Notes under the pieces: generated by a model | Told to the model about the DNA's origin: nothing | Seen by the model: the letters and a program-made list of their open reading frames with translations, nothing else | Database searches by the model: none | NCBI GenBank assembly: GCA_903866825.1 | Contig: CAIPPE010000323.1 | Coordinates: forward strand, 1-49,449 | DNA from: an uncultured Methylococcaceae bacterium | Lineage (GTDB): Bacteria > Pseudomonadota > Gammaproteobacteria > Methylococcales > Methylomonadaceae | DNA length: 49,449 bases | Direction: 5' to 3' | Shown: positions 24,606 through 41,758 of the stretch, one piece after another | How the letters are laid out: each line of letters begins with the position of its first letter | How positions within the stretch are numbered: position 1 is the first letter of the stretch | Made by a program: the position numbers and the translations under genes

Positions 24606-26003
24606 TTACAAATGGTAAGCTGTTTCACCGTGCTCGGAAATGTCCAAACCTTCACGTTCGACTTCTTCACTTACTCTTAAGCCAATCACGATATCAATTA
24701 ATTTAAAAGCGACAAAAGACACAATGCCTGACCAAACTATACTAGTACCTACCCCCCAAAGCTGGCTAATAAACTGCGTTGAAAAGCTGTATTCAGCAAC
24801 ACCATTAGCAACATAATCCCAAACTCCTGTACCACCTAATGCTGGGTTTGCTACTACTGCAGTTCCTAACGCCCCAATAATTCCACCAATCCCATGAACA
24901 CCAAATGCGTCTAATGAATCATCATAACCCAGGAGGCTCTTCAGACTTGTCACAGCAATGAAACAAGCCACCCCTGCAACCAACCCTAATACGATAGAAC
25001 CCATTGGCCCTGCCCAACCACAAGCCGGAGTGATTGCAACTAAACCAGCAATCGCTCCAGAAGCCCCTCCTAACATACTTGGTTTACCCCGAATAACCCA
25101 TTCAGCTCCACTCCAAGCCAATGTGGCAGCGGCACTTGCTAATAATGTGTTAACAAAAACCAAGGTAGAAAGACCATTAGCTTCTAAATTAGAACCCACA
25201 TTAAAACCAAACCAACCCACCCATAACAAGGAAGCACCAATCATTGTCATAGGCACACTATGTGGAGCCAGAGATTCTTTGTTATAACCAATACGTTTAC
25301 CAACTATCAAACATCCTACCAAACCAGCAATACCAGCGTTGATATGGACAACTGTACCGCCCGCAAAGTCCAACGCACCTTTTTGAAATAGAAAACCTGC
25401 TGTCGCACCTGCAGTCGTACCCGCTGCTGCATCAGTATAGGCATCAGGACCTGCCCAATACCAAACCATGTGAGCAATTGGCAAATAAGCAAAGGTAAAC
25501 CAAATTACCATAAACAATAAAATCGCTGAAAATTTAACACGTTCAGCAAAAGCACCAATAATTAACGCTGGAGTGATACCCGCAAAAGTTAGCTGAAATG
25601 CGACATAGATATATTCGGGAATATAAACACCTTTGGTGAAACTGGCAGCCATCGAATCTGGCGTTATACCTGACAGAAACAACTTACCAAACCCACCAAT
25701 AAAAGGGCTACCTTCTGTAAAGGCTAAGCTGTAACCATAAAGAGCCCATAATACGGCTATCAAGGAAAAAATAATAAAAACCTGCATTAATACAGAGAGC
25801 ATGTTTTTGGCACGTACCATACCGCCATAAAACAATGCCAAACCTGGAATAACCATTAGAATAACAAGAACAGTTGCCACTATCATCCAGGCCGTATCGC
25901 CTTTATTAACACTAGGAGCTACTACCGTAGCAGGATCAGCCAAGGCAAATCCGGCAAAACTCAACAAAGCAACAAAAATAAAGCTATTAAATAAATGTTT
26001 CAT
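24606..26003 (-). CDS. amtB: Ammonium transporter AmtB
   Basis: A 465-residue trimeric inner-membrane ammonium channel. It has a signal peptide (MKHLFNSFIFVALLSFAGFA) and eleven membrane helices. The twin histidines of the pore are in VVHINAGIAGLV and FGVHGIGGIIG. The ATG at 26003 has a GGGGA ribosome site; an in-frame ATG five codons upstream lacks one. It lies 18 bases after glnK, the near-universal glnK-amtB pair in which GlnK plugs the channel when nitrogen is plentiful. It should be expressed from the sigma-54 promoter upstream of glnK. Confidence 0.96.
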   Translation of the reverse strand: MKHLFNSFIFVALLSFAGFALADPATVVAPSVNKGDTAWMIVATVLVILMVIPGLALFYGGMVRAKNMLSVLMQVFIIFSLIAVLWALYGYSLAFTEGSPFIGGFGKLFLSGITPDSMAASFTKGVYIPEYIYVAFQLTFAGITPALIIGAFAERVKFSAILLFMVIWFTFAYLPIAHMVWYWAGPDAYTDAAAGTTAGATAGFLFQKGALDFAGGTVVHINAGIAGLVGCLIVGKRIGYNKESLAPHSVPMTMIGASLLWVGWFGFNVGSNLEANGLSTLVFVNTLLASAAATLAWSGAEWVIRGKPSMLGGASGAIAGLVAITPACGWAGPMGSIVLGLVAGVACFIAVTSLKSLLGYDDSLDAFGVHGIGGIIGALGTAVVANPALGGTGVWDYVANGVAEYSFSTQFISQLWGVGTSIVWSGIVSFVAFKLIDIVIGLRVSEEVEREGLDISEHGETAYHL

Positions 26004-26021: not shown

Positions 26022-26399
<378 letters not shown>

Positions 26400-26407
26400 T
26401 TAAAGAA

Positions 26408-26423
26408 AGCAGAGACTGTGCCA
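26408..26423 (-). promoter_or_regulatory. Sigma-54 promoter of glnK-amtB
   Basis: On the minus strand the sequence reads TGGCAC-AGTCT-CTGCT, one base from the consensus TGGCAC-N5-TTGCW, with exact GG-N10-GC spacing. The predicted transcript begins near 26396, leaving a leader of about 36 bases to the glnK ATG. Confidence 0.85.
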
Positions 26424-26563
26424 AATACAATTTCATCATTATTTTATTACCCAAGCACATTCAAAAATGCACTATCCTTAAGGTAATAAATAAATCGTTA
26501 GTAGCATAAAACAAGAAAAATCCAGAGAAACGCTTAATTATCACCCCTACATTCCTAATTATG

Positions 26564-26609
26564 CGCACCGGATCAGAGCAATTAAACCATTTAGACCCAT
26601 ATTGGTGCA
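26564..26609 (-). promoter_or_regulatory. Two NtrC-like boxes upstream of glnK
   Basis: On the plus strand, CGCACC-GGATC-AGAGCA (26564-26580) and AGACCC-ATATT-GGTGCA (26593-26609) both resemble the NtrC site TGCACC-N5-GGTGCA. Their centres are 29 bp apart, close to the spacing of paired NtrC sites at E. coli glnA. They lie about 175-205 bp upstream of the predicted glnK start. With the sigma-54 promoter they account for most of the 358-bp gap before ntrC; I see nothing else there. Confidence 0.7.
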
Positions 26610-26718
26610 CTTATACATCTAATCTGGTAGAAAGATCATGATTGATAAAATCGATCAAAAAAACGCTATTAATACCAAAACACATTTATAAACAGGTCTT
26701 CAAAAGAATTGTTAGTAA

Positions 26719-28140
26719 TTACTCGTCTGATTCGATTCCCAACTCCTTTATCTTCCGCGTCAAAGTATTTCGACCATAACCCAACAAAATTGACGCTTCA
26801 TGACGCCTGCCATGAGTAAAATCAAGAGCTGCTTTAATTAAAATCGCTTCAACGGTGGGTATTGTATGTTTCGCAACTTCTGGTTCTTTTGAAAGAAGCT
26901 GCAGATCAACCCAATTTCTAAGTAACGTTTCCCAATCGGTTCCAGCATTATCTTTTTCGATTGGAGCACTCAGTAACTCAGGAGGCAAATCATGTAAATG
27001 TATTTCTCTACTAGAGGCCATTACCGTTAACCAACGGCAACTATTTTCTAATTGCCTGACATTTCCAGGCCATTCTAGAGTACTTAAATAAGTCTCTGCA
27101 TCAGGTTTCAAAACCTTATTCTCAACCCCTAGCTCCGAAGCGGCCTGCTGCAAAAAATGGCGCAACAACAAAGGAATATCTTGCTTTCTCTCACGCAAAG
27201 CAGGGATATGAATTCGAATGACATTTAAGCGATGAAACAGATCCTCACGGAAACGTCCCTGCTCAACCAGCACCTCAAGATTTTGATGCGTTGCTGCAAT
27301 AATACGTACATCAACCTTTATAGCTAAATGAGCGCCAACAGGATAAAACTCACCATCGGCCAACACTCTTAATAATCGGGTTTGTAGCTCTGCAGGCATA
27401 TCACCTATTTCATCTAGAAATAGAGTTCCCCCATTGGCCTGCTCAAAGCGCCCTGCTCGCCGTGCTTGAGCGCCAGTAAATGCTCCCTTCTCATGCCCAA
27501 ATAGCTCAGATTCCATCAAGTCTTTTGGAATCGCGGCCATATTCAAAGCAATAAAAGGACTTTTAGACCTAGGACTATGTCGATGCAATGCCTTAGCAAC
27601 TAATTCTTTACCTGTACCTGACTCACCATTAATAAGCACAGTAATATGTGACCTTGCCAAACGACCTATCGCCCGAAAAACCTCTTGCATCGCTGGCGCC
27701 TCACCAATAATTTCTGGTGTTGGCTCACTACTAACGTTCGCAGAACGGGAAGCATCATTTTGCTGCTGACGTCCGTGTAAACAAGCACGCTGCGCAAGAC
27801 TAACAACCTCCTTAATATCAAAAGGTTTAGGCAAATATTCGAAAGCCCCTCCATGAAAAGCAGATACTGCACTTTCCAAATCAGAATGCGCTGTCATTAC
27901 AATCACAGGCAAATTAGGATGGCTCAATTGAACTTTATCCAAAAGCTCTAAACCATCCATACCGGGCATACGAATATCAGTTATCAGTGCATCGGGTAAA
28001 TCACCGCTTAAAGCACTGAGTAAATCCTGTCCCGCTGAAAAAGTACGAGTGATAATATTGGCTTTTTGTAAAGCCTTCTCAACAACCCAACGAATCGATT
28101 TATCATCATCAATAATCCAGACAGTATCAGGCTTAGTCAT
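26719..28140 (-). CDS. glnG: Nitrogen regulator NtrC (NR-I), sigma-54 activator
   Basis: A 473-residue response regulator, also called ntrC. The receiver domain (1-120) has phospho-acceptor Asp55 ([14 protein letters not shown]). The AAA+ domain has Walker A GESGTGKE (172-179) and the sigma-54 contact loop GAFTGA (219-224). The C-terminal helix-turn-helix is of the Fis type ([21 protein letters not shown]). NtrC-P remodels sigma-54 polymerase at the promoters described in this window. It overlaps ntrB by eight bases, the usual coupled order. Confidence 0.96.
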
Positions 28141-29182
28141 GACCTACTCCCATTGGCAAAAATATTGAAAATATAGTATTTCCTGGCTGACTATTGCACT
28201 CTATTAAACCGTTATGCTGAGTAATCAAGGCTTGCGCAATTGACAAACCCAAACCAGTTCCTTCTGCCCGACCAGTAATCATGGGGTAGAATATTTGATT
28301 CATCATACTGGCATCTATGCCAGGCCCGCTATCAATAATGTCACATTTAACCGCTAATTTATAACGTTTACGACCAATATTCATATGCCGATGTATACGC
28401 GTTTTAAAAATTATCCTCCCCTTTCCCTCCATGGCCTGCACGGCATTTTTAGCAATATTTAAAATTGCTTGAATAAGTTGATCCTTATCCGCAAAAATTT
28501 CAGGAATACTGGGGTCATAATCATTTTGGATACTCAAACTCCCGCTCGATTCTGCTTGAACTAATTGCCTTACTCGCTCCAATACTTCATGAATATTGAT
28601 GGATTTTTTGTTCGGCAACTTATTTGGCCCTAACATTTTGTCTAACAAACCCTGCAAACGATCGGATTCGGCAATAATAATTTGGGTGTACTCTTTTAGA
28701 TCTGGATCATCCAACTCCAAATCCAGCAATTGCGCTGCCCCCCGCAACCCACCTAAAGGATTTTTGATTTCATGAGCCAATCCTCTAACAAGCAATCTAG
28801 CTGTATTCTGCTGTGTCAATAGCTGTTCTTCCTTAGAGATACGTAAATGATTATCGACTTGTTGAAATTCCACCAATATCTCATTCACTTTCTCATCAAC
28901 TAATAATGGTGTAGCGCTAAAATTAGTTGTTACATTATGCGGCATCCGACTTAAGGTCAATGCACGATCAACTAAAGGTTCAGACATCGCTAATGACTGC
29001 CTCAGATTGATAAGTAATGCAGGATCAGATGCCTTAAATAACTCATCAGCACTTTGCCCTACTAAATGATGAGCGCTATCAGCAAACAGAATTTCACCTG
29101 TTGTATTAATAAAAGTAAGTATTAATTCACGATCAAACAATAATATTGCAGTATTAAGATGATCCAACATTCGTTTATACAT
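28133..29182 (-). CDS. glnL: Nitrogen sensor kinase/phosphatase NtrB (NR-II)
   Basis: A 349-residue cytoplasmic histidine kinase, also called ntrB. An N-terminal PAS domain (about 1-110) leads to the H-box with His137 (RGLAHEIKNPLGGLRGA), the N-box (ILNIAKNAVQAME) and G-boxes (DSGPGID and GRAEGTGLGLSIAQ). PII proteins switch it from kinase to phosphatase when nitrogen is plentiful. A sigma-54 promoter about 50 bases upstream and an NtrC box suggest that ntrBC is autoregulated and separate from glnA, which ends at its own terminator. Confidence 0.95.
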   Translation of the reverse strand: MYKRMLDHLNTAILLFDRELILTFINTTGEILFADSAHHLVGQSADELFKASDPALLINLRQSLAMSEPLVDRALTLSRMPHNVTTNFSATPLLVDEKVNEILVEFQQVDNHLRISKEEQLLTQQNTARLLVRGLAHEIKNPLGGLRGAAQLLDLELDDPDLKEYTQIIIAESDRLQGLLDKMLGPNKLPNKKSINIHEVLERVRQLVQAESSGSLSIQNDYDPSIPEIFADKDQLIQAILNIAKNAVQAMEGKGRIIFKTRIHRHMNIGRKRYKLAVKCDIIDSGPGIDASMMNQIFYPMITGRAEGTGLGLSIAQALITQHNGLIECNSQPGNTIFSIFLPMGVGHD

Positions 29183-29232
29183 TGTCGTTTTAATCAGTCC
29201 TTTTTGATATAGCGATTTATTCCTTTTAATGA

Positions 29233-29248
29233 AGCAATTAATAGACCA
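29233..29248 (-). promoter_or_regulatory. Sigma-54 promoter of ntrBC
   Basis: The minus strand reads TGGTCT-ATTAA-TTGCT, with exact GG-N10-GC spacing and a perfect -12 element. The -24 element keeps the essential TGG. The predicted start is near 29222, about 40 bases before the ntrB ATG. Confidence 0.72.
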
Positions 29249-29310
29249 AGCTTAAAGGGAATGGAGCATTTAGAAATCTTTTATCATTATACCCACAATA
29301 AATACAAAAA

Positions 29311-29327
29311 CGCACCATAATGGGTCA
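29311..29327 (-). promoter_or_regulatory. NtrC-like box upstream of ntrBC
   Basis: CGCACC-ATAAT-GGGTCA on the plus strand has the same form as the boxes at glnK and the porin. Its centre is about 97 bp upstream of the predicted ntrB start, a normal enhancer distance. Confidence 0.7.
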
Positions 29328-29393
29328 AAAGATTGCCCACCAATAACATTTATTTATTAATTAACCAGTTAAAATCGGCAATATTAAGGGCAT

Positions 29394-29426
29394 AAAAAAC
29401 CCCGCTAAGCATTGAAGCTTGCGGGG
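29394..29426 (-). terminator. Rho-independent terminator of glnA
   Basis: On the minus strand a stem CCCCGCAAGCTT...AAGC..GCGGGG is followed by six T residues. It begins about 32 bases after the glnA stop and separates glnA from ntrBC. Confidence 0.88.
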
Positions 29427-29457
29427 TCTTTAAGCTCTGGGACTGTCTGAAACAGAC

Positions 29458-30867
29458 CTACAAGCTATAGTACAAATCGTATTCAGCTGGGTGAGTACTC
29501 ATACGTAAACGAGTCACTTCTTCCATCTTCAACGCGATATAGCCATCGATTACATCATCAGTGAAAACACCACCTTTTTTCAAGAACTCACGATCCACAT
29601 CTAATGCTTCCAGCGCTTGATCAAATGAATGACAAACTTGCGGGATAAGCTTCGCTTCCTCAGCGGGTAAATCATACAAGTCCTTATCCATAGCCTCGCC
29701 AGGGTGGATTTTGTTTTGAATACCATCTAAACCAGCTAACAACATAGCAGAGAATGCTAAGTAAGGATTAGCTGTTGAATCTGGGAAACGCACTTCGATA
29801 CGACGACCTTTTGGGTTGTTAACAAAAGGAATACGAATTGACGCAGAACGGTTACGAGCTGAGTAAGCTAACATAACAGGGGCTTCAAAACCTGGTACTA
29901 AACGCTTGTAACTGTTAGTAGAGGCATTAGTAAAAGCATTTAATGCTCTAGCGTGCTTAATGATGCCGCCAATGTAATACAACGCTGTTTCTGACAAGCC
30001 GCCGTATAAATCACCGGTAAACAGATTAACACCGTCTTTAGCTAAAGATTGGTGCACGTGCATCCCGCTACCGTTATCACCCACTAATGGCTTTGGCATG
30101 AACGTAGCCGTTTTGCCATAAGCATGAGCAATATTAGCTACTACATATTTTAACTCTAAAACTTCATCTGCTTTTTTTACTAGCGTGTTAAATTTAACAC
30201 CAATTTCACATTGACCTGCAGTAGCAACTTCATGATGATGCACCTCAACAACCAAGCCCATCTCTTCAAGCGTGTTGCACATTGCTGAACGAATGTCCTG
30301 AAAAGAGTCCACAGGAGGTACTGGAAAATACCCCCCTTTAACACCTGGACGGTGACCTGTGTTTCCATCAGGATACACTTTTTCTGAGTTCCAACCCGCT
30401 TCTTCAGAATCAATTTTATAAAATGAGCCACTGATATCAGTGCCCCAACGAACATCATCAAAGATAAAAAATTCATTTTCTGGACCAAAAAACGCAGTGT
30501 CTGCAATACCGGTTGATTTTAAATATTGCTCTGCGCGCTTAGCTAACGAACGCGGATCACGCTCATAACCTTGCAAATTTTTTGGCTCGATGATGTCACA
30601 ACGTAAAATTAAAGTGTTATCATCAAAAAATGGATCAATAACTGCTGTTGTTGGATCAGGCAATAAAATCATGTCTGATTCATTGATGTGCTTCCAACCT
30701 GCCACAGAAGAACCGTCAAACATATTACCTTCTTCAAAGGTATCTTCATCAATAGTATGAGCAGGAAATGTAACGTGTTGCTCTTTACCACGGGTATCAA
30801 CAAAGCGAAAATCAACGTATTTAATATCGTTTTCTTCAATCAACTTTAATACTTTTTCTACAGACAT
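29458..30867 (-). CDS. glnA: Glutamine synthetase type I
   Basis: A 469-residue dodecameric enzyme making glutamine from glutamate, ammonia and ATP. Signatures are [28 protein letters not shown] and the ATP-binding [10 protein letters not shown]. The adenylylation Tyr is in [12 protein letters not shown], so it is the GlnE-regulated type. A GGGGA ribosome site lies before the ATG. Upstream I could not find a GG-N10-GC sigma-54 promoter on this strand. A sigma-70-like TTGATT-N18-TATAAT is present, and an NtrC box about 215 bases upstream is shared with the divergent porin gene. Confidence 0.97.
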
Positions 30868-31036
30868 TTAAATAGTCCCCATTGTGTTAGTTGTTATTGT
30901 TATTGTTATGTGTGTGTTTTGCCAAACATTATAAAGATACCATTTTTCTTGCTCAATTAGCCACTAAAAAAGTAACAAGGCTATTTAAAGTATAATAAAT
31001 CAAAAGCACTAACAAACATTTGTTAAGACACAACAA

Positions 31037-31066
31037 ATTATAGCTTTTTGCACACTTTTAAATCAA
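31037..31066 (-). promoter_or_regulatory. Possible sigma-70 promoter of glnA
   Basis: The minus strand has TTGATT, an 18-base spacer and TATAAT. It would give a leader of about 160 bases. The region is A+T-rich, so chance matches are likely. The 397-bp gap between glnA and the porin holds this, an NtrC box and the porin's sigma-54 promoter. Confidence 0.4.
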
Positions 31067-31080
31067 AGCATCATTAAATA

Positions 31081-31097
31081 CGCACCATTACGGATCA
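31081..31097 (+). promoter_or_regulatory. NtrC-like box between glnA and porin
   Basis: CGCACC-ATTAC-GGATCA matches the box form seen at ntrBC and glnK. Its centre is about 96 bp upstream of the predicted porin start. A weaker relative, TGCACA-CTTTT-AAATCA, lies 32 bp further up (31049-31065). It could act on both divergent genes. Confidence 0.68.
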
Positions 31098-31158
31098 AAA
31101 ATAAATAAAAATTTTTGCATAATTAAGTAACACATTGTATTATAAAGATATAAATGAT

Positions 31159-31174
31159 TGGCACAAGTCCTGCT
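31159..31174 (+). promoter_or_regulatory. Sigma-54 promoter of the porin gene
   Basis: The plus strand reads TGGCAC-AAGTC-CTGCT, nearly identical to the glnK promoter (TGGCAC-AGTCT-CTGCT) with exact GG-N10-GC spacing. The predicted start is near 31185, about 80 bases before the porin ATG. Confidence 0.85.
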
Positions 31175-31264
31175 ATCGTTATTTCAGTGTTCTTTGTCTA
31201 GTTACCAAAGGAGTTGTTATTTAACAACAGAGCACCATTTTTTAAGTCATTAAGAGGAATTAAA

Positions 31265-32608
31265 ATGAAACAACTACCTATAAGCAAAAGCCAGGTAATC
31301 ATCGCTGCTGCGAGTGGACTTTTGTCACTTACACTTAGCGCAACACAAGCCCAGGCTGCAGGTGCAATACCATCACTGACAGGTTACGACATTAATGAAT
31401 CCAGCTTCTTGAAAGATAACGGAATAACAGTCAATGGCAACGCTAATGCTGGCATTACCTACAATGGTAACAACCCTACCAATGGCTTTAACGGCCCGGT
31501 TACTTTTGGCGATCGATCAAGCGAATTCCAGTTAAACCAATTAAACCTGTCCATCCAAAAAGCGGTCGCTACAGAAGGCGATAAATGGAGTTTCGGCGGT
31601 CGTTTTGATGCCATGTTTGGTACTGATTCCATCTTTACCCAAGCCTACGGCGTACCAGCTTTCAACCCCAATTCGCCTGGACAAGCACTTAGCAGAAACA
31701 ACTGGGATTTAAACATTTTAGGTACAGCAGGCAATCGCTTTTACGGCATCGCTTTACCCCAAGCTTATTTAGAAACCTACGTCCCTGTCGGCAATGGTCT
31801 AGATGTTAAACTGGGCCACTTTTATACACCTATTGGGTATGAAACTGTACCGGCCAATGAAAACTTCTTCTACACCCATGCTTACACCATGCAATATGGC
31901 GAACCTTTCACGCACACTGGCGCATTGGGTAACTATGCGTTCAGTTCAAACTGGTCAGCAATGGGTGGCGTTACAACTGGCAGTGCAACCGGTGGCTGGG
32001 ACGGCGGCTTTAACCAACAACTAAGCAACTGGAGTGGTATCGGTGGCGTAACCTGGACTAGCGATGACAAAGGCTCATCTGCTAATGTCAGCGGTACTTA
32101 TGGTGCAGCCTCATCATTAAGCAGTCATGCATGGGCGCTATACAGTATCGTATTAAAACATAACTTTACTGACAAAACCCATTTCGTACTACAACATGAT
32201 CACGGCTTTGCTAATGCAGTCTATGGCGCAGATGGGTCTATTCAAGATGCACAATGGTACGGCGTTAACTCTCACCTGTACTATGATATAAAAGACAACA
32301 TATCAGTCGGCATGCGTGCTGAATGGTTCCGCGATCAAAATGGTTTCCGAGTAGCTCAAGCTGGTCGTATAGCTGGCGCTGTTAATGGTAGCGGCTATAG
32401 TTACGCTGGCCAATATTATGGCGCAGCTGCAGCCAGCTATTACGAACTTACCTGGGGCGTAAACTGGAAGCCGGTGACATGGCTGAACTTACGTCCAAAC
32501 GTCCGCTATGACCGTGTCGATGGAACCCAAGCAGGCACTGCTTACACCCCATTTGGCGGACATAATGACCAAGTCTTATTCTCTAATGACTTTATTGTTA
32601 CCTTCTAA
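31265..32608 (+). CDS. Outer-membrane beta-barrel porin (BBP2/OmpL-like)
   Basis: A 447-residue protein with a signal peptide (about 1-33, ending ATQAQAAG) and a long series of alternating, aromatic-rich strands, ending in Phe (SNDFIVTF) as outer-membrane barrels do. The pattern FQLNQLNLSIQKAV, PQAYLETYVPV and KLGHFYTPIGYE is typical of the putative beta-barrel porin-2 family. The substrate is unknown. The ATG at 31265 has an AGAGGA ribosome site; the frame is open upstream, but those residues precede a normal signal peptide. A sigma-54 promoter and NtrC box upstream suggest it is made under nitrogen limitation, perhaps to admit a nitrogen source. Confidence 0.87.
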   Translation: MKQLPISKSQVIIAAASGLLSLTLSATQAQAAGAIPSLTGYDINESSFLKDNGITVNGNANAGITYNGNNPTNGFNGPVTFGDRSSEFQLNQLNLSIQKAVATEGDKWSFGGRFDAMFGTDSIFTQAYGVPAFNPNSPGQALSRNNWDLNILGTAGNRFYGIALPQAYLETYVPVGNGLDVKLGHFYTPIGYETVPANENFFYTHAYTMQYGEPFTHTGALGNYAFSSNWSAMGGVTTGSATGGWDGGFNQQLSNWSGIGGVTWTSDDKGSSANVSGTYGAASSLSSHAWALYSIVLKHNFTDKTHFVLQHDHGFANAVYGADGSIQDAQWYGVNSHLYYDIKDNISVGMRAEWFRDQNGFRVAQAGRIAGAVNGSGYSYAGQYYGAAAASYYELTWGVNWKPVTWLNLRPNVRYDRVDGTQAGTAYTPFGGHNDQVLFSNDFIVTF

Positions 32609-32634
32609 AGATAACAACCGCTCTATACCGCTTT

Positions 32635-32662
32635 AAAAATGCGCCTTCGGGCGCATTTTTTT
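32635..32662 (+). terminator. Rho-independent terminator after porin
   Basis: An 11-bp stem AAAAATGCGCC/GGCGCATTTTT is closed by a TTCG tetraloop and runs into a T-tract. It lies 27 bases after the porin stop and separates it from glnN. Confidence 0.93.
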
Positions 32663-32699
32663 GCTCAAACACAAAGCGTTACTTTCTATTCGCTGACAA

Positions 32700-32745
32700 C
32701 GCATCATCCTGGTGCAAAATAATATCAATGCACCAGAACAATTCA
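32700..32745 (+). promoter_or_regulatory. NtrC-like boxes upstream of glnN
   Basis: CGCATC-ATCCT-GGTGCA (32700-32716) is a strong box. A second, weaker one is TGCACC-AGAAC-AATTCA (32729-32745). Their centres are 29 bp apart, as at glnK. The inner half-sites form a perfect inverted repeat CTGGTGCA...TGCACCAG. They lie about 120-150 bp upstream of the predicted glnN start. Confidence 0.68.
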
Positions 32746-32831
32746 CCAGATAGACTTGTGCTTACTAGTAACTAACATCAACAGTTGGCTATTCCCAGAC
32801 TAGAGCACTTAATTCAGACAATTTTAATAAC

Positions 32832-32847
32832 TGGTTCAATAATTGCT
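32832..32847 (+). promoter_or_regulatory. Sigma-54 promoter of glnN
   Basis: The plus strand reads TGGTTC-AATAA-TTGCT, with exact spacing and a perfect -12 element, like the ntrBC promoter. The predicted start is near 32857, about 40 bases before the ATG. Confidence 0.75.
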
Positions 32848-32896: not shown

Positions 32897-35071
32897 ATGA
32901 CTGGAAATGCCGCCCGCATTCAAGCTGTCCAAAACATCACTAACCGTCAACCAATGCCCGTTTCAAAGCCAGACTCGTTGGCTAATCTTTGGGCTAGTGA
33001 TGTATTTACTCTCAGTAAAATGAAAGAAAGCCTGCCTAAAGAAGTTTTTAAATCAGTCAAGAAAACAATCGAAACTGGAGAAGCCCTGGATGTTTCAGTT
33101 GCAGATGTAGTCGCCTTAGCCATGAAAGATTGGGCCTTATCAAAAGGTGCGTTATATTATGCCCACGTCTTTTATCCTTTAACCAATGCTACCGCAGAAA
33201 AACACGATGGATTTATTTCTGTCCAGAGCGATGGCTCGGTTATCTCTGAATTTGGTGGTAAAGTATTAGTACAAGGCGAACCTGACGGTTCATCATTCCC
33301 TAATGGTGGCATCCGCTCTACATTTGAAGCACGTGGTTATACAGCATGGGACGTAACCAGCCCAGCTTACATCATGACCACCGATAACGGTTCAACACTT
33401 TGCATTCCAACTGTTTTCGTATCTTGGACAGGTGAAGCACTGGATAAAAAAACACCTCTACTTCGCTCTAATGCGGCCATGAACAAAGCGGCAAAAAGAG
33501 TACTTTCCTTATTGGGCAATACTGAAATTGCTCCGGTTAATTCAAGCTGTGGAGCAGAACAAGAATACTTTCTGGTCGATGCAAATTTCGTCAATACCCG
33601 CCCTGACTTGCTGTTATCGGGCCGTACCTTATTAGGCGCATCGCCTGCCAAAGGCCAACAATTTGACGATCATTACTTTGGTGCTATTCCAGAACGTATC
33701 CAGGTATACATGCAAGATGTTGAAGAACAACTCTATCGTTTAGGCATTCCAGCAAAAACTCGCCATAACGAAGTAGCACCTGGCCAGTTTGAAATCGCTC
33801 CATTCCATGAAGCTGCAAATGTCGCCACTGATCATCAACAGCTCATCATGACTGTGTTAAAAAACACAGCCAAAAAACACGGACTCGTCTGTTTGCTGCA
33901 CGAAAAACCATTTAAGGGTATCAATGGTTCAGGCAAACACGTTAACTGGTCAGTGGGTAATGCTACACAAGGCAACTTACTCGATCCTGGCCACACTCCA
34001 CACTCAAATACTCAATTTTTGCTATTCTGTGGCGCAGTAATACGAGGCGTACATAAATACGGCCCACTGTTACGTGCCGCTATCGCCTCAGCCAGTAACG
34101 ATCATAGATTAGGCGCGAATGAAGCACCTCCAGCTATCATGTCGGTATACTTGGGATCACAACTAGATAATGTTTTTGAGCAAATTAGCCAAGGTAAAAT
34201 CACTGGTTCATTAAATGCAGGCATAATGGACTTGGGTATTTCCACCCTTCCCACTTTTAACAAAGATGCTGGAGACAGAAACCGTACTTCTCCTTTTGCA
34301 TTTACGGGCAACCGTTTTGAATTCCGTGCCGTAGGCTCAGGTCAATCGGTTGCAGGCCCATTAGTTTCAATGAACACTTTATTAGCTGATTCACTTAACT
34401 GGGTTGCTGATAGCTTAGAAGATCAATTATCAAAAGGTAAGGATCTTGATTCAGCCATATTGTCTACACTCAAAGAAATTATCGACAACCATGGCGCTGT
34501 TGTATTTAGTGGCAATGGTTATTCCGCTGAATGGCATAAAATAGCTGTTGAAGAACGTGGTCTTGCTAACCTCAAAACAGCAGCTGATGCACTCCCTGTT
34601 TTAAAAGAAAAATATATCGAAGAGTTATTTGACAAACTCGGCGTTTTATCACCCGTTGAATTAGCTAGCCGCTTTGAGATTTACGCTGAGCAATACATTC
34701 TAGCTATCGAAGTTGAAGCCAAATTAGTCGTCAGCATGGTTAAAACAGGGATTTACCCAGCTGTACTCAAATACTTATCAGATTTATCTTCTACATTAAG
34801 CAGCCTGAAAAGTAATGGCATTGAACTGGATAATAGTCGCTTAACACTGATTAGTGAGCAACTAAATTCATTAACAACAACTGTAGATACATTGAAATCA
34901 GCTATTGCTCAGCATGATTTTGAGAGTATTGAAGAGCACTTGCAATTCAGCGCAAAAACCATTCGTCCATTAATGGATGAAGCACGTAGCTATGCTGATG
35001 CGCTTGAAAGTGAAGTATCTGATGAATTATGGCCATTCCCAACTTATCAAGAAATGTTGTTTATTAAATAA
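32897..35071 (+). CDS. glnN: Glutamine synthetase type III
   Basis: A 724-residue enzyme of the GSIII family, which has the same reaction as GlnA but is much larger. It lacks the GSI adenylylation site. Family features include the N-terminal RPxPVSKP-like segment ([13 protein letters not shown]), [47 protein letters not shown] and [23 protein letters not shown], plus a long helical C-terminal part (about 560-700). Type III enzymes are typical of Bacteroidetes and cyanobacteria and are sporadic in gammaproteobacteria, so transfer in the past is possible, though base use does not look foreign. A GGGGA ribosome site precedes the ATG. The upstream sigma-54 promoter and NtrC boxes indicate induction by nitrogen limitation. 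Confidence 0.95.

Positions 35072-38004: not shown

Positions 38005-41758
<3,754 letters not shown>

Follow-up and report, generated by a model that had tools for sequence, protein, structure and literature searches.

A predicted NtrC/sigma-54 nitrogen regulon in a Methylococcales bacterium, with glnA apparently outside sigma-54 control and a candidate small RNA

An island of nitrogen genes in an uncultured Methylococcaceae bacterium very probably carries a genuine, textbook-type NtrB/NtrC-sigma-54 regulon for nitrogen starvation. The island lies in a stretch of 49,449 nucleotides (hereafter the window), which corresponds to contig C323 in a draft genome of 4.28 Mb from the order Methylococcales (completeness 98.9%, bin contamination 3.18%). 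Sigma-54 promoters accompanied by NtrC boxes stand before glnK-amtB, ntrBC, the gene of a BBP2-type outer-membrane porin, and glnN, and their sequences strongly support activation of all four by NtrC and sigma-54; by analogy with known Ntr systems, the expression of these operons and genes would depend on nitrogen. We regard the regulon itself as near certain; its four promoters are sound, yet nothing out of the ordinary for an Ntr system. The unusual point is that glnA, the textbook target of NtrC, appears to be out of sigma-54 control across the family.

The original prediction had placed sigma-54 promoters with exact GG-N10-GC spacing before four genes, and we located each of them at its coordinates: upstream of glnK-amtB (TGGCACAGTCTCTGCT, 26408..26423, minus strand), ntrBC (TGGTCTATTAATTGCT, 29233..29248, minus strand), the porin gene (TGGCACAAGTCCTGCT, 31159..31174, plus strand), and glnN (TGGTTCAATAATTGCT, 32832..32847, plus strand). 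All four are kept in relatives. We scored such sites by their matches to the 12 letters of the consensus TGGCACG-N4-TTGCW and obtained 10 for glnK, 10 for the porin, 9 for glnN, and 8 for ntrB. The GG-N10-GC word alone is frequent, with 281 occurrences in the window, where three sites score 10, 19 score 9, and 45 score 8. Because the ntrB and glnN sites are moderate and the word is common, the case rests on the pairing of promoters with boxes and on conservation.

To score the boxes, we used a matrix made from 54 boxes of relatives, the window being excluded. Of these, 22 precede porin genes (from 26 relatives, after dropping duplicates and the deviant boxes of loci L033 and L048) and 32 precede glnK (from the 16 of 28 relatives with an opposed pair, a choice that favours regular boxes); the promoters and boxes of ntrB and glnN had no part in the training. 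The resulting consensus, GCACCATAATGGTGC, agrees with the NtrC box of Escherichia coli, published as TGCACCAnnnTGGTGCA (PMC8743547). With this matrix, the porin box (31082..31096) has the highest score of the window (15.5), followed by those of ntrB (29312..29326; 14.9) and glnN (box 1, 32701..32715; 14.7, conserved), by a site inside eno (13.4), and by the distal glnK box (26594..26608; 13.2), which fits GCACCN5GGNTC. The proximal glnK box (26565..26579) scores 9.8, and such box pairs recur in relatives. As predicted, the second glnN box (32730..32744) is weak (8.75), and the centres of the two boxes are 29 bp apart at glnK and again at glnN. Counted by hand from the predicted transcription start (+1), the centres lie at -175 and -204 for glnK, -97 for ntrB, -96 for the porin, and -150 and -121 for glnN, which bears out the predicted distance of 95 to 205 bp.

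Could four such pairs be a coincidence of frequent words, picked by the reader upstream of nitrogen genes? The abundance of GG-N10-GC and the single boxes found inside genes speak for this explanation. When we required a box of at least 13 and a sigma-54 match of at least 8 at 45 to 230 bp, the window yielded the four predicted pairs and no other, each of them upstream of an island gene, against a mean of 0.26 and a maximum of 2 in 200 dinucleotide shuffles of the window. Thresholds of 13 and 9 left three pairs, with ntrB lost (shuffle mean 0.045, maximum 1), as did thresholds of 9.5 and 9 (again without ntrB; mean 0.435, maximum 2). The sites are also conserved at the same places in relatives. 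Taken together, the shuffles and these footprints led us to reject chance, which we consider vanishingly improbable, and they uphold the earlier statement that four pairs would not be expected at random. Several observations weigh on the other side of the scale. The thresholds were picked after the window scores were known, the -24 elements of ntrB and glnN are off consensus (TGGTCT and TGGTTC), and both the second box of glnN and the porin's second element score low. In addition, the box inside eno (at 38738) has no sigma-54 site downstream, nor does a box scoring 19.7 elsewhere in the genome (locus L004), so that boxes by themselves do arise by chance.

The comparison with relatives, which are not independent draws, supports each promoter separately. 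We gathered 29 porin loci from relatives, of which one (L028) lacks the region and two (L049 and L050) belong to other families and show no porin-side promoter, a further point against the regulon reading. In the 26 that remain (25 from the same genus, one from the same family), TGGC-N8-TGC is always present, and a box 76 to 78 bp before the -24 element is the best match in 23 and among the top three in 25; in L048, the box stands at -89 instead. A weak element 32 bp further upstream of the porin box (GCACA...TTTAA; 31050..31064 in the window, where it scores 0.7), which the original prediction does not mention, also recurs. The glnK promoter is found in all 28 relatives with a recognisable glnK start (29 loci fetched, none recognisable in L203). 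Their boxes form an opposed pair 29 to 30 bp apart in 16 cases and two right-hand half boxes 44 to 45 bp apart in six; the other six have forward boxes about 30 bp apart or a single box. A promoter 62 to 67 bp before ntrB, with a box of at least 9.6, occurs in our genome and in 10 of the 10 relatives with ntrB (11 of 30 loci). For glnN, 16 relatives had a match and 15 loci were fetched: the promoter is present in 14 and missing in L226, and 11 of the 15 have two forward boxes 29 to 32 bp apart (a loose pattern, counted by eye).

We then extended the porin comparison to 20 genera of the family, taking one homologue each from a longer list. A sigma-54 site of at least 9 precedes the gene in 17 genera, and 16 of these 17 also have a box of at least 8.4, the seventeenth (L263) offering too little sequence for a call. 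Three genera have no convincing porin promoter, which also counts against the regulon reading: L252 and L266 have no site, and that of L264, inside or next to the coding part, was left uncounted. For comparison, a box of at least 8.4 accompanies only 3 of the 59 other sigma-54-like sites of our own genome.

The island encodes the regulators that these sites call for. The response regulator (ntrC, 26719..28140, minus strand) passes the cut-off of the NtrC profile TIGR01818 (728 bits against 558.6) and does not pass that of the NtrX profile; family searches identified its receiver, AAA+ sigma-54 activation, and Fis-type helix-turn-helix domains, and the GAFTGA loop is present. It is preceded by ntrB (28133..29182, minus strand; NF008293, 357.6 bits against a cut-off of 240). 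The PII protein is encoded by glnK (26022..26360, minus strand; PF00543, and NF007946 with 181.4 bits against 181), with the ammonium transporter gene amtB on its 3' side (24606..26003, minus strand; PF00909, E 2.3e-115). The genome also encodes RpoN (PF04552, E 1.5e-65) and both GlnD and GlnE, so the members of the PII cascade (the uridylyltransferase GlnD, PII, and NtrB) are all present.

The boxes might nevertheless serve another activator of sigma-54, such as NtrX, NifA, or some other enhancer-binding protein. Such activators probably exist in this organism, since such a box is missing from 56 of the genome's 59 other sigma-54-like sites. As an account of the island's boxes, however, this is very unlikely: their consensus matches the published NtrC box (PMC8743547), ntrC lies within the island and is an NtrC rather than an NtrX by profile, and the same box precedes glnA widely. 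Among 80 loci found by GlnA similarity, Methylococcales included, two were too short; of the other 78, 71 have a box of at least 12 within 500 bp of glnA, 66 have a sigma-54 match of at least 9 within 300 bp, and 61 have both. We thus favour NtrC. Under nitrogen shortage, NtrB would phosphorylate NtrC, as in known Ntr systems; NtrC dimers on GCACC-N5-GGTGC boxes would assemble and loop to the RNA polymerase-sigma54 at the -24/-12 sites, opening transcription of glnK-amtB, ntrBC, the BBP2 porin gene, and glnN. The promoter on ntrBC would amount to positive self-regulation.

The porin (31265..32608, plus strand; PF07642, E 3.3e-94) is the least expected member of this set, and its promoter could serve a purpose other than nitrogen, for instance in a general envelope protein captured through its adjacency to glnA. 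That the protein has no match among Protein Data Bank (PDB) sequences up to E 0.01 would fit such a role. Yet the promoter and box also precede homologues in six genera (L254, L260, L261, L265, L267, and L268) whose fetched stretch shows no glnA, and NtrC-controlled porins are known: in Burkholderia cenocepacia H111, several porin genes fall and one rises in an ntrC mutant under nitrogen limitation (PMC5491218). We therefore deem the envelope explanation somewhat unlikely and retain the porin as a putative nitrogen-responsive gene. The parallel with B. cenocepacia lies in the inclusion of porins in the NtrC regulon. The systems differ in that its outer membrane porins are of unnamed families, whereas here a single BBP2 porin is divergent from glnA, and in that its glnA is NtrC-dependent, whereas here glnA is without a sigma-54 promoter. 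A further comparable case, the FmdC porin of Methylophilus methylotrophus, belongs to a different gene cluster.

The analysis of the whole genome indicates that the regulon probably extends outside the window. The pattern GCACCN5GGNTC occurs 19 times, against 4 for its reversed form, and a sigma-54 match of at least 8 lies within 350 bp of seven of these 19; the only intergenic ones among these seven are the three of the island. Most pattern matches outside the island lie inside longer frames and most have no sigma-54 match downstream. Boxes alone proved too weak in three whole-genome pattern scans, and we rejected them as a predictor of the regulon. The promoter pattern TGGCAYN6TGCW occurs 61 times (9 for the reversed pattern), although it is strict and misses sites of the ntrB and glnN kind, so that its list is incomplete. 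Outside the window it has 59 sites, of which 37 are outside longer frames and three have boxes of at least 11. The claim that the four pairs define the local nitrogen regulon stands for the four promoters and has to be amended on two counts, since glnA falls outside it and the regulon probably reaches beyond the window.

The first of the three outside sites precedes a glutaminase gene (PF04960; contig C242, 12339-12454, loci L174 and L237), with a box (GCACCATTCTGGTGC) 100 bp upstream. Its score of 19.2 is the highest for any box paired with a sigma-54 site beyond the window. This gene was found in 2 of 41 genomes, our own included, so its contig may have been acquired or wrongly binned, the bin contamination being 3.18%. 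The second precedes a gene of the GH15 family on the contig that also carries glnD (C38; L134:1283-1570) and has two boxes (12.9 and 8.8) 29 bp apart. The third has no gene behind it and precedes a probable small RNA instead, described below.

The type I glutamine synthetase gene glnA (29458..30867, minus strand; TIGR00653, NF007006) lies between ntrB and the porin gene. Between glnA and the porin gene, there is no GG-N10-GC on the glnA strand at any score, and we rejected a sigma-54 promoter for glnA in the window. We then applied a single rule to the relatives (a sigma-54 match of at least 8 located 45 to 135 bp before the start). A promoter is found in 0 of 26 members of the genus (our own included), in 1 of 12 from the rest of the family, and in 14 of 21 from the order's other families; a Fisher test of 1/38 against 14/21 gives p about 1e-7, with species that are not independent. 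By this rule, the comparison shows glnA to be without a recognisable sigma-54 promoter across the family, unlike in two out of three of the species sampled elsewhere in the order.

At the place of the old promoter, an A-tract followed by TGNTAT is found in 25 of 26 members of the genus, in 10 of 12 of the rest of the family, and in none of the 21 from other families. One genus of the family (L258) reads TGGTATCGTAATTGCT at this place, which is an intact sigma-54 site, and several other genera read TGTTAT, the GG being lost to GT. We take TGNTATNNT to read as a sigma-70 extended -10. The window also has a sigma-70-like promoter before glnA, TTGAGC-17-TATAAT (30928..30956, minus strand; 10 of 12 matches, by consensus only), which overlaps the place of the old -24 element, even if such sites are not enriched in the region (9, against 7.9 in shuffles). 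The simplest inference from these sequences is that a sigma-70 promoter has taken over the old -24 element as its extended -10. On this basis, glnA would be transcribed from a sigma-70-type promoter, and glnN (32897..35071, plus strand; type III glutamine synthetase, PF12437, E 2.5e-73) and the divergent porin gene would hold the NtrC-dependent promoters. After glnA, we noticed by eye a terminator-like hairpin (29400..29427, minus strand; absent from our terminator scan, which limits loops to 8 bases) that would separate glnA from ntrBC.

Alternatively, glnA could still depend on NtrC through a degenerate sigma-54 promoter (TGGTATC...) rather than on sigma-70. A TGGTATC-like block does lie about 58 to 79 bp before glnA, where other families have their sigma-54 promoter, L258 retains the intact site, and 15 of 26 members of the genus, our own not among them, have kept a box of at least 7 some 125 bp ahead of glnA. 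The last observation means that NtrC may still touch glnA in some of them. Nevertheless, all 26 members of the genus lack a GG-N10-GC match of at least 8, in several other genera even the GG has changed to GT, the A-tract with TGNTAT is kept in this family and absent from all 21 others, and TGNTATNNT reads as a sigma-70 extended -10. This makes a degenerate promoter unlikely, and we prefer the sigma-70 reading. An older report is said to describe sigma-54-like and NtrC-like sites before glnA of Methylococcus capsulatus.

The comparison with the enterobacterial Ntr regulon puts this arrangement in perspective. E. coli shares with our system the regulator, the sigma factor, the consensus of the box, the target glnK, and the presence of paired boxes before a promoter. 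Its NtrC activates glnAp2 and feeds back negatively via glnAp1 and glnLp (PMC3870243), whereas here there is no sigma-54 promoter on glnA and one on ntrBC. In the lineage studied here, the sigma-54 promoters are now on glnN, ntrBC, and the porin gene. This arrangement opens the division of work between two glutamine synthetases to direct testing, and it may be an example, within a known lineage, of the decay of one type of promoter into another.

The third site outside the window (contig C267, 41528-41543, minus strand; L177:611-716, relatives L294-L316) likely marks a real small RNA gene of about 70 nt. Some 70 nt past the expected start lies the end of a perfect 12-bp hairpin with a T run behind it, and the stretch from promoter to terminator is present in 23 of the 61 genomes searched, our own included, all of the same genus. 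All 23 loci keep GG-N10-GC, and 20 have a box of at least 8, mostly 111 to 125 bp upstream, the exceptions being L298 (7.9), L306 (6.7), and L314 (none). The core of the RNA, TCTCCTGT, does not vary, and the terminator stem hardly does; three of the 11 stem pairs are changed on both sides, one of the three being broken or gapped in six rows, which we read as a modest sign of structure. To its right, the nearest frame in 9 of the 23 loci looks by eye like that of glutamate-1-semialdehyde aminomutase (hemL). Our own copy matches no Rfam 15 family up to E 1, although the presence of NrsZ in Rfam was unchecked. Placed behind a sigma-54 site with NtrC boxes, the RNA seems to belong to the same regulon.

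At the level of sequence, a sigma-54 promoter and NtrC boxes before a terminated non-coding transcript correspond to the mode of NrsZ, a small RNA of Pseudomonas aeruginosa that is induced by NtrB/C and RpoN under nitrogen limitation (PMC9308961). NrsZ differs in being at least 226 nt long, lying beside ntrC, and acting on rhlA, whereas our RNA, about 70 nt long, is located elsewhere. Its first bases, ACAGGCAC, resemble the NrsZ motif ACAGGCAG but are not kept in relatives. The enterobacterial GlnZ, derived from the 3' end of the glnA mRNA, links NtrC activity to the post-transcriptional control of nitrogen and carbon; it is cut from that mRNA and acts on sucA (PMC9731577), whereas our RNA has its own sigma-54 site and a predicted pairing with the glnA leader. 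Each part thus has a precedent (porins under NtrC, a small RNA under NtrB/C and RpoN). In our searches of open-licence PMC papers, we found no description of the combination or of this RNA, and none of the titles found dealt with NtrC control in a gammaproteobacterial methanotroph or with such a small RNA.

Pairing predictions raise the hypothesis that the small RNA acts on glnA. Without its terminator, the RNA has a predicted pairing energy of -30.1 kcal/mol with the glnA leader, over a stretch that takes in the ribosome-binding site and the start. This ranks glnA first of 144 gene starts of our genome (mean -15.5, standard deviation 3.8, second -24.8), a small and mechanical sample. For 16 genes of the window, we counted how many of 200 shuffled RNAs reached the score of the real one: glnA was alone in having none, with one for gatA, four for ftsB, and five for truD. 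In the 19 species that have both parts, glnA reaches a mean z of -2.11 relative to shuffled targets (8 of 19 below -2), compared with -0.01 for the porin (19 species), 0.04 for glnK (18 species, one below -2), and -0.76 for glnN (12 species). Other results argue against this pairing. Most of the signal comes from the branch of the genus to which our genome belongs; outside it, the signal is weak or missing, with z above -1 in G004, G005, G008, G013, and G034. The CU-rich core, moreover, would find partners in many ribosome-binding sites. When RNAs were swapped among the 19 species, the full RNAs paired equally well with their own and with swapped leaders (-19.4 and -19.5 kcal/mol), 2,954 of 5,000 permutations being as good, which lends no support to coevolution of the RNA with glnA.

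The joint scenario would be that glnA left sigma-54 control, its old -24 element (TGGTAT) turning into a sigma-70 extended -10, that NtrC drives glnN, the porin, ntrBC, and the new RNA of about 70 nt, and that this RNA covers the ribosome-binding site of glnA, so that nitrogen starvation would switch the cell from glutamine synthetase I to III. This scenario is speculative and we think it unlikely, the swap result having lowered its odds a little; if true, the Ntr wiring has been turned round in a family of Methylococcales.

A few further features of the window deserve mention. The best named relatives of GlnA come from Crenothrix polyspora and from Methylococcaceae and Methylococcales drafts. 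A scan of the window with Rfam gave nothing at gathering scores. The 5' leader of the porin gene contains a small hairpin of six pairs, GTTGTT-ATTT-AACAAC (31213..31228, plus strand), whose innermost pair among 27 loci is T-A in 10, C-G in 8, T-G in 2, and otherwise composed or unpaired in 7. In two relatives (L035 and L036), the porin leader holds GTGTTTTATGCC (12 bases in L035, 15 with its flank in L036) and the glnA leader its exact complement, so that both messages could pair there. Such complementarity reaches 15 bases in L036 and 8 to 13 in nine other loci, and no stretch of at least 8 was found in 16 of 26; in our own genome, it consists only of a 10-base, A/T-rich stretch. Finally, a hairpin with a T run (TGCGCC TTCG GGCGCA, 32637-32660) on the 3' side of the porin gene is likely its terminator, and four of the five aligned relatives share it.

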